Shown here piece after piece: positions 27,897-37,086 of a stretch of 50,468 bases of DNA. The translations under genes and the position numbers were made by a program. This DNA is from Blattabacterium cuenoti (GTDB lineage: Bacteria > Bacteroidota > Bacteroidia > Flavobacteriales > Blattabacteriaceae). The notes under the pieces were generated by a model that worked only from the letters and a program-made list of their open reading frames with translations, did no database searches and was not told the origin of the DNA. The stretch's first letter is position 1. The number at the start of each line of letters is the position of its first letter. The DNA lies in NCBI RefSeq assembly GCF_014251955.1, contig NZ_CP059203.1, positions 588,948-639,415 of the forward strand. The letters run 5' to 3'.

Positions 27897-28477
27897 TTAA
27901 TTTTTATTATTGAATAAATTCATAGTTTTTTGTAATCCATTTAAAATAAATGAAAATATTATATCAATCCCTATTTCTAATTTAGAAAATAATTTTTGGT
28001 ATTCTTCTTCATTCCAATTATCTAATACATAATTCATTTTGTTTTTTTGATAAAAAGAAAAATTATTGCGACTTTTAATGCCAAAACGAAGACGAGCATA
28101 ATGAAATGTTCTTAATTCCTCTTCAATATTTTTTAATCCGTTATGTCCTCCATTTCCTCCTTTTTCTTTTAAACGAAAATTACCAAAATGAAGATAAAGA
28201 TCATCAGATATAATAAGAATATTTTTTAAGGGAATATTTTCCTTATTCATCCAATATTTAACGGATATTCCAGAACCATTCACATAAGTTGAAGGTTTTA
28301 AAAAAAAAATTTTTTTTTTTTCAAATTCAAGACTGAAACAAAACCTAATTTTTTTTCTGAAAAAGAAAAAAAATACTTTTTTGAAATTTGATCTAAAATT
28401 AAAAATCCTAAATTATGTCTTGTTTTTTTGTATAATATCCCTGGATTTCCTAATCCAGTGATTAAAAATTTTTCCAT
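27897..28477 (-). pseudogene. pth: Peptidyl-tRNA hydrolase, split by one base at a poly-A/poly-T tract
   Basis: Pth frees tRNA from peptidyl-tRNAs that drop off ribosomes and is normally essential. From the ATG at 28477 the first frame gives the family start [13 protein letters not shown] and [12 protein letters not shown] (the catalytic His is in RHN). It ends at a stop just past a tract of 12 A and 10 T on the coding strand. The second frame resumes as [13 protein letters not shown] and carries IISDDLYLHFG, KGGNGGHNGLK and the C-terminus. One added base, or two removed, in the tract would restore about 193 residues. Both halves look well conserved, so transcriptional slippage could rescue it. 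Sequencing error is the other explanation. It lies 3 bases after sucD. Confidence 0.85.
28300..28321. repeat. A10/T12 homopolymer pair at the pth frameshift
   Basis: On the plus strand ten A are followed directly by twelve T, read on the coding (minus) strand as A12 then T10. The frame of pth changes across this tract. Such runs are prone to polymerase slippage in replication, transcription and sequencing. Confidence 0.95.
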
Positions 28478-35429: not shown

Positions 35430-36619
35430 TTAAAAGTTAGGATATTTTCTATTACTCCTAGAATAATAAAAAAAAATAGATATAATAATCCCAACCATAA
35501 AAATCACACATGTTATTAGAAAAAAATTTTTTATTGTAAATTTTACTGGAAAAGGAATTTTATCTATCATTTTAAAAAAATGATATGTTCTCTGTAACAA
35601 AGAGACAATATAGGATACAAATATCCCAGTAGACCATCCAAAAAAAGTAATAAGAATTCCTATGTAAAAAAAAATTTTTTGTATTTCAGATAAAGAATAA
35701 CCAAAACTCCACAATACAAAAAGTTGGTTTTTTTTATCTAATTGTAATATATAAATTGCACTCATTAAGTTGAATCCAGTAATTAATGTAATTAAACTGA
35801 ATAAAAAATAAATGAACATTTTTTCCGTATTAACAATTTTATAAAAATATTTTTCCTCTTCTATCCGTGTTTTTATCATAAATCCGGATCCAAATTTTTT
35901 TTTCAAAATTTTTTTTATTTCATAAATATTTTCATTTTTATCAATTTTTATTTCCAATGTCTGAAAAACATTTTTCTTGATTAAATTCTGAATCTCGGAA
36001 AGATCACAAAATAAATATTTTTTATCAGTATTTGGACTAAATTGAAAAAATCCTTTTATTTTCGCCTCTTTTTTTATAAAAAACGGAACTAAAGATTTTT
36101 TTTTTTAAAAAAATAAAAAAGTTTAATTTTTATAGGAAAAAATAATGTAAAATAATAAATCATGGGGTAAGATAGACTTACATATATATTAATTTTATTA
36201 TTTTTTGTATTTTTTTTTGTAAGAATAACTTTTTTAAAATTTTTCATAACTTTTTGATATTCTGAATCAACTCCTTTTAAATGAAATAAATAGACAGTAT
36301 TTTTGTAATAAAAAAATACTTTTTTTTCCATAGTTTTAGAAAAAGCCATAATTCCTTTTGCAGATTTCATTTTTTTCATTAGAATTTTATCGCTTATATT
36401 AAATTCTTTTCCATTTAAAGAAGAAATAACAATATCAGGATAATGAATTTGATAAAATTTTAAATTTAAATCCTCTAAACCAGAAAAAACAGATAGAATT
36501 ATAGATAAAGAAAATGTAGATATACTAAGAGATACAGTAGATAAAAAAAGAATAATGTTAACAATATTCGTTCTCTTTTTAGAGAAGAAATATCGTATCG
36601 CTATATAATAAGTTTTCAA
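35430..36619 (-). pseudogene. LolC/E (FtsX-like) ABC permease, frameshifted at a poly-A tract
   Basis: Two adjacent reading frames together make a protein of about 396 residues that looks like a LolC/LolE-type permease, the membrane part of a lipoprotein or export ABC transporter. The first frame starts MKTYYIAIRYFFSKKRTNIVNIILF (membrane helix 1, then a periplasmic part) and stops at 36089. The second frame is open from there (KSLVPFFIKKEAKIKGFFQF) and carries the three C-terminal membrane helices to 35432. The shift is at an A11 run on the coding strand, where one added or two removed bases would rejoin the frames. It may be rescued by slippage, be truly broken, or reflect a sequencing error. 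It overlaps rbfA by 4 bases. Confidence 0.8.
36096..36106. repeat. T11 homopolymer (A11 on the coding strand) at the permease frameshift
   Basis: Eleven T on the plus strand, followed by seven A, mark the point where the Lol-type permease changes frame. This parallels the pth lesion: both need +1 or -2 bases to be restored. Confidence 0.93.
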
Positions 36620-36984
36620 AACTTAGATAAAAATTTTTTTTCTTTTTTCTCCATTTCCATAAGTTCTAAAGATCTATCCAAACGAAAATCCAGTTTTGGA
36701 ATTTTTTTGACACGATATCTAAGTCTTTTGGAGAGTAATTTTCTGTAAAATCCAGATTTTAAACGAATTTTTCTTAAAATATTCCTATCTAGAAAAGGAT
36801 AGATAGCAATATATCCCATTATTAAATTCATTTCGTAAAAAATACAAACTTTAATTAAAGTAACTAAAAATCCTTCTTTATTTTTTTTTACATCATTATA
36901 ATTTTTATTAAATTCTTTATGTAAAATTTCTGCTATTTCTATATAAAATATTGAAGATAGTTTTTTATTTTTAATAGAATTCAT
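36616..36984 (-). CDS. rbfA: Ribosome-binding factor A
   Basis: RbfA is a KH-like protein that helps 16S rRNA 5' end maturation and cold adaptation. From the ATG at 36984 the product is 122 residues and begins MNSIKNKKLSSIFYIEIAEIL; an ATG at 36993 adds three residues. The small basic protein shows the RbfA order of an N-terminal helix, a beta-strand block (FLVTLIKVCIFYEMNLIMGYIAIYPF) and the C-terminal helix ending KKIPKLDFRLDRSLELMEMEKKE, close to the family pattern P-x-L-x-F-x-x-D-x-S. The following permease starts inside its last codons, a linkage that is common in Bacteroidetes. Confidence 0.88.
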   Translation of the reverse strand: MNSIKNKKLSSIFYIEIAEILHKEFNKNYNDVKKNKEGFLVTLIKVCIFYEMNLIMGYIAIYPFLDRNILRKIRLKSGFYRKLLSKRLRYRVKKIPKLDFRLDRSLELMEMEKKEKKFLSKF

Positions 36985-37086
36985 GCCTATCATGATTTTT
37001 TAAATATTCAATTAAAAATAAAAAAAAATTTGTAATAGGTTAAATATTGTTGTAACATTGCATTTATATTTATCATCATCATTATG

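Follow-up and report, generated by a model that had tools for sequence, protein, structure and literature searches.

A frameshift at an A11 run in a LolC/E-type permease gene of Blattabacterium and the concentration of homopolymer-associated shifts among the Lol genes of the genus

A permease gene open as two frames

Blattabacterium is the fat-body symbiont of cockroaches. The window, by which we mean the whole stretch of 50,468 nucleotides that was analysed, occupies positions 588948–639415 at the end of a 639415-base Blattabacterium contig and has a GC content of ∼25%. On its minus strand (36619..35430), a gene for a LolC/LolE-type permease adjoins rbfA and is open as two frames (Table 1). 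The rbfA stop and the TTG start of the permease overlap by 4 nt, and many relatives likewise have TTG at the corresponding position of the alignment.

Table 1. Features of the permease locus and of pth in the window
Feature	Position	Strand	Remarks
rbfA, upstream neighbour of the permease gene	36616..36993	-	PF02033 match slightly below cut-off
Permease, N-terminal half: TM1 and first part of the periplasmic domain	36092..36619	-	TTG start; ORF 36619..36089 including TAG at 36091-36089
Permease, C-terminal half: rest of the periplasmic domain, TM2-4, FtsX domain PF02687	35430..36104	-	Shifted frame, open to the natural stop
A11 run, site of frame loss (-1)	36096..36106	-	T7 directly before the run
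Sole interval where the two permease frames can join, 19 nt	36089..36107	-	Bounded by TAA (downstream frame) and TAG (upstream frame)
pth (peptidyl-tRNA hydrolase), frameshifted	27900..28477	-	A12 at 28310-28321; A12/T10 region

The downstream frame has its last stop, and the upstream frame its first, inside a 19-nt interval (TAAAAAAAAAAATCTTTAG, 36107..36089). Eleven of these nucleotides are the A11 run, so the switch of frame must occur at the A run. Neither half holds a further stop. A first-pass annotation had described the gene as two frames that meet at A11 and that need +1 or −2 bases to be joined; both points hold, since the join interval contains the run and the phase of the lesion is −1. 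The downstream ORF that it had listed (35957..35430) begins at an internal TTG, and the frame is actually open from 36104. The pairing of the two halves is not a product of chance, because both match one intact ORF of ∼390–420 aa in 33 other Blattabacterium genomes, the nearest intact orthologue showing 75% identity.

The proposed identity, a Lol/FtsX-like permease, was likewise borne out by a Pfam FtsX domain in the C-terminal half and by matches of the NCBIfam lolCE profile to both halves and to nearly the full length of the intact orthologue, all under the equivalog cut-off. Like the LolCDE and LolDF lipoprotein exporters, the permease matches LolF (E 1.3e-20), LolE (E 2.4e-12), and LolC in a PDB profile search, and a fold search with a model of the orthologue from the sister genome G037 ranks LolE of LolCDE first. 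That model is weak (mean pLDDT 57), with four long helices in the order TM1, periplasmic domain, and TM2–4 with the FtsX domain, and it only supports a Lol-like fold, nothing further. Unlike the characterized exporters, the Blattabacterium permease falls far short of the NCBIfam equivalog cut-off (121 vs 362 bits), and for this reason “LolC/E-type” is the safe name.

The permease and its Lol partners across the genus

We compared 49 species-level Blattabacterium genomes, in which G000 denotes the genome of the window. The permease was found in 36 of the 49 and is missing from 13. The comparison of frames in related symbionts that the first-pass annotation had called for found it intact in 33 of the 36 carriers, among them the two closest relatives, G037 and G026. 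Besides G000, the frame is broken in G021, at the homologous tract, and in G007, at an A9 run near the N-terminus; the lesion of G000 is unique among its close relatives. At the homologous site, the sister G037 carries an A-rich, in-frame stretch of 12 nt (A8 T A3), and in G045 the tract is shifted but compensated. In most relatives the tract is not a conserved long run.

The other two Lol genes are intact in G000. They encode a LolD-like ATPase (G000:C1:58822-59484), which is the best LolD-like match and lies below the LolD equivalog cut-off, and a second LolC/E-type permease (G000:C1:487807-488934). LolD and the two LolC/E-type permeases co-occur perfectly, with 36 of the 49 genomes holding all three and 13 holding none, and because of this they make one system. 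Genomes without it are mostly the smallest (511–595 kb where size was seen), and it was lost several times, the pth tree needing at least four changes. With 13 genomes lacking the system, it is dispensable in Blattabacterium.

Homopolymer frameshifts cluster in the Lol genes

A single homopolymer-associated frameshift is present in 13 of 108 Lol gene copies, distributed over 12 of the 36 genomes. It affects the first permease in G000, G021, and G007, the second permease in G048 and G024, and lolD in eight genomes (G018, G021, G047, G001, G025, G035, G019, and G040). For comparison, the homologous region in five of the genomes holds ∼232 copies of non-Lol genes, of which 2 are shifted (∼1% or less), a difference with a Fisher p of ∼1e-5 in what is an exploratory, post hoc comparison. 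In the literature searched this genus-wide clustering is new, and subscription papers on gene loss may already contain it. The lolD of Blattabacterium from Periplaneta fuliginosa and P. japonica, a case from the same genus and the same system, is listed as a pseudogene (PMC6039017); unlike here, the accessible text of that report names it so with neither a homopolymer nor a slippage reading.

Beyond the shifts, lolD retains its Walker B and signature motifs. One A9 run in lolD is common to a well supported clade of six genomes (G041, G001, G047, G018, G045, and G021), other genomes having one base more, and it puts lolD out of frame in G018, G021, and G047. Downstream of this shared −1 shift, dN/dS between G047 and G018 is 0.13 (CI 0.05–0.24); downstream of another shared −1 shift, in G019 and G040, it is 0.23 (0.14–0.41). 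The shifted lolD frame is therefore under purifying selection, provided that the shifts were inherited and are not recent repeats. Since the shifted lolD of related species is still selected, such lesions need not kill the gene.

The other broken gene of the window, pth, has lost its frame in G000, G037, and G026, with G000 and G026 in the same phase and G037 in the other. Beyond the tract, the three sister species show dN/dS of 0.32–0.35, that is, purifying selection. Persistence of a lesion across species is thus observed for pth and lolD, whereas for the permease the closest relatives are intact. The pth gene is also split at A/T runs in G022, G027, G014, G011, and G048.

Taking the lesions in Lol genes and pth together, 18 of 21 are −1; counting shared lesions once leaves ∼13 of 15 (p ∼0.007, with a grouping of our own). 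Replication slippage biased towards deletion would produce this excess, and so would the survival of only those lesions that an added A in the RNA or a −1 ribosomal slip can correct; both accounts fit these counts.

In G021, −1 shifts at A9 runs affect both the permease and lolD, and among the genomes its Lol system is the strongest candidate for one that is dying. Compensated indels occur in G045 (Blatta orientalis) and G041 (Cryptocercus punctulatus), and G001 shares the insertion of G041. In G045, lolD and the permease each contain several one-base deletions that jointly restore the frame and are possibly sequencing errors. As proof of selection on shifted alleles, these indels were given little weight, both genomes being 454 assemblies.

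Tests of assembly error and gene decay

For the two same-sign lesions of the window, the first-pass annotation had proposed either a systematic undercount of homopolymers in the assembly or a slippage-tolerant expression system. We sampled 250 kb of G000 (the window and ten 20-kb stretches), in which 22 of 24 coding A/T runs of at least 11 bases and 216 of 218 of at least 9 are in frame. Among the compared G000 genes, the frame is lost in pth and the permease and in no others. Of 198 genes with an intact G037 orthologue, one is clearly broken in G000, namely the permease; a short gene of 126 aa shows a local frame difference between the two genomes, with both ORFs open. The run counts, the single broken gene in 198, and a pth whose frame is also lost in the two closest relatives leave a systematic undercount without support. 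The other proposal gains indirect support from selection on shifted lolD, from a permease without decay, and from published precedent (PMC3017870, PMC5009743).

Extra stops or lost residues, which had been named as marks of true decay, were looked for in the permease and did not appear. The 663-nt downstream half contains no stop, against ∼9.6 expected under neutrality over the whole G000 branch (∼0.21 synonymous changes per site; P ∼7e-5), and zero stops are compatible at 95% with a neutral phase of at most ∼31% of that branch. Relative to G037, permease dN/dS is 0.35 before the tract and 0.33 after it, resembling the intact pair G037–G026, and in the permease tree the G000 branch (0.106, vs 0.166 for the intact sister) shows no acceleration. 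The permease was functional for most of the G000 branch; a rescued gene and a recently lost one are not distinguishable by these measures.

Slippage and competing explanations

We lean, with slightly better than even confidence, towards a real contraction of the run, either young or tolerated, in a gene that is not visibly decaying and from which a minority of full-length permease would still be made by slippage. This reading draws on a lesion confined to the run, intact relatives, the lack of decay, intact partner genes, numerous comparable lesions elsewhere in the Lol genes, and selection beyond the shared ones. A T-to-A change in a G037-like A8 T A3 stretch may have created a run of 12 bases that became A11 by the loss of one base, replication slippage in the A-rich stretch contracting the run and putting the permease −1 out of frame. 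RNA polymerase could then add one A, or drop two, within A11 and so produce in-frame transcripts. Alternatively, ribosomes might slip by −1 on A AAA AAA, which A11 contains in the right register for such a slip; a search downstream of A11 for an RNA structure that could stimulate ribosomal slippage found none (z = 0.01).

Slippage by RNA polymerase is favoured over ribosomal slippage, on precedent only. Runs of 9 A or T yield RNA products with extra bases, and in Buchnera and Blochmannia, endosymbionts of aphids and ants, such runs give 12–50% corrected transcripts (review PMC5009743). By this measure, A11 is long enough for RNA polymerase to slip.

The permease could instead be a recent pseudogene, killed by the contraction a short time ago and now entering a course of loss that is already complete in 13 other species. 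The joint loss of the Lol genes in 13/49 genomes, for which the pth tree requires four or more changes, makes this plausible, as does a lesion seen in G000 alone among its close relatives, which could be too young for decay. The far higher frequency of shifts in Lol genes than in others (13/108 vs 2/232) points to weak constraint; G021 has both the permease and lolD broken, and the frameshifted permease of G007 sits on a long branch (0.24). However, decay of the G000 permease is not yet visible, both of its Lol partners are intact, and the shared frameshifted lolD stays under purifying selection, so we regard recent death of the gene as a serious but distinctly less probable account. Less probable again, and in our judgement unlikely, is that the assembly miscounted this one tract, or that the tract varies in length within the symbiont population and the consensus took up the minor form. 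The homologous stretch of the sister, at 12 nt, is one base longer than the G000 tract, runs of 11 identical bases are prone to error, and 454 assemblies are among the published Blattabacterium genomes in several cases (PMC4567559); yet 22 of 24 runs of at least 11 are in frame, 197 of the 198 genes whose sister orthologue is intact show no clear break, and comparable lesions recur in other Blattabacterium genomes.

Phase variation, in which the tract would serve as a regulated and selected on/off switch operated by replication slippage, we hold to be very improbable. The homologous tract is indeed off frame in both G000 and G021, and shifted and compensated in G045, but most relatives do not conserve a long run there, lesions in different species lie at different tracts, the gene product is a lipoprotein exporter of the inner membrane, and the symbiont lives sheltered. 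Returning to slippage at a contracted run, a wider version of this explanation can be offered tentatively, as doubtful rather than probable: slippage at A/T runs may be a standing mode of expression for LolC/E, LolD, and pth across Blattabacterium, the shifted genes being long-lived, reduced-dose alleles in a half-way state before loss of the Lol system.

Relation to known slippage systems

The permease case is a new instance of an already known phenomenon, the poly(A)-tract frameshifts of Buchnera and Blochmannia, for which transcriptional slippage is reported (Tamas et al. 2008, Wernegreen et al. 2010). As in the genes described by Williams and Wernegreen 2010 (PMC3017870), a single indel lies in an A/T run of at least 9 bases in an AT-rich insect endosymbiont, and the gene is otherwise open and conserved; some of those lesions are likewise common to several species, and pth is affected in Blochmannia vafer. 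Those hosts of the phenomenon are Gammaproteobacteria with transcript data, whereas Blattabacterium belongs to the Bacteroidota and its case is built on comparative sequence evidence. The Blattabacterium lesions also differ in clustering in the Lol system, itself lost in 13 species. A comparable case is Walczuchella, likewise a flavobacterial endosymbiont, of scale insects, with homopolymer frameshifts, for which the authors state that the pseudogenes may still work (PMC3971599); going by the accessible portion of that paper, a comparative test of selection belongs to the Blattabacterium case.

If real, slippage-tolerated frameshifts would extend to a third old insect symbiosis, in another phylum. 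The 36 species with three co-lost genes would then form a test set in which a homopolymer lesion as the first step of loss can be set against a stable low-dose state. Metabolic reconstructions would then do well not to score such genes as pseudogenes.

Two further frameshifts at homopolymers were observed outside the Lol system and pth. In G037, a gene of 328 aa (L125 3530-4518) whose G000 counterpart is intact loses its frame at an A12 run, and in G047 an alpha/beta-hydrolase-like gene (G047:C1:19732-20498) does so close to the C-terminus, at a T9 run.
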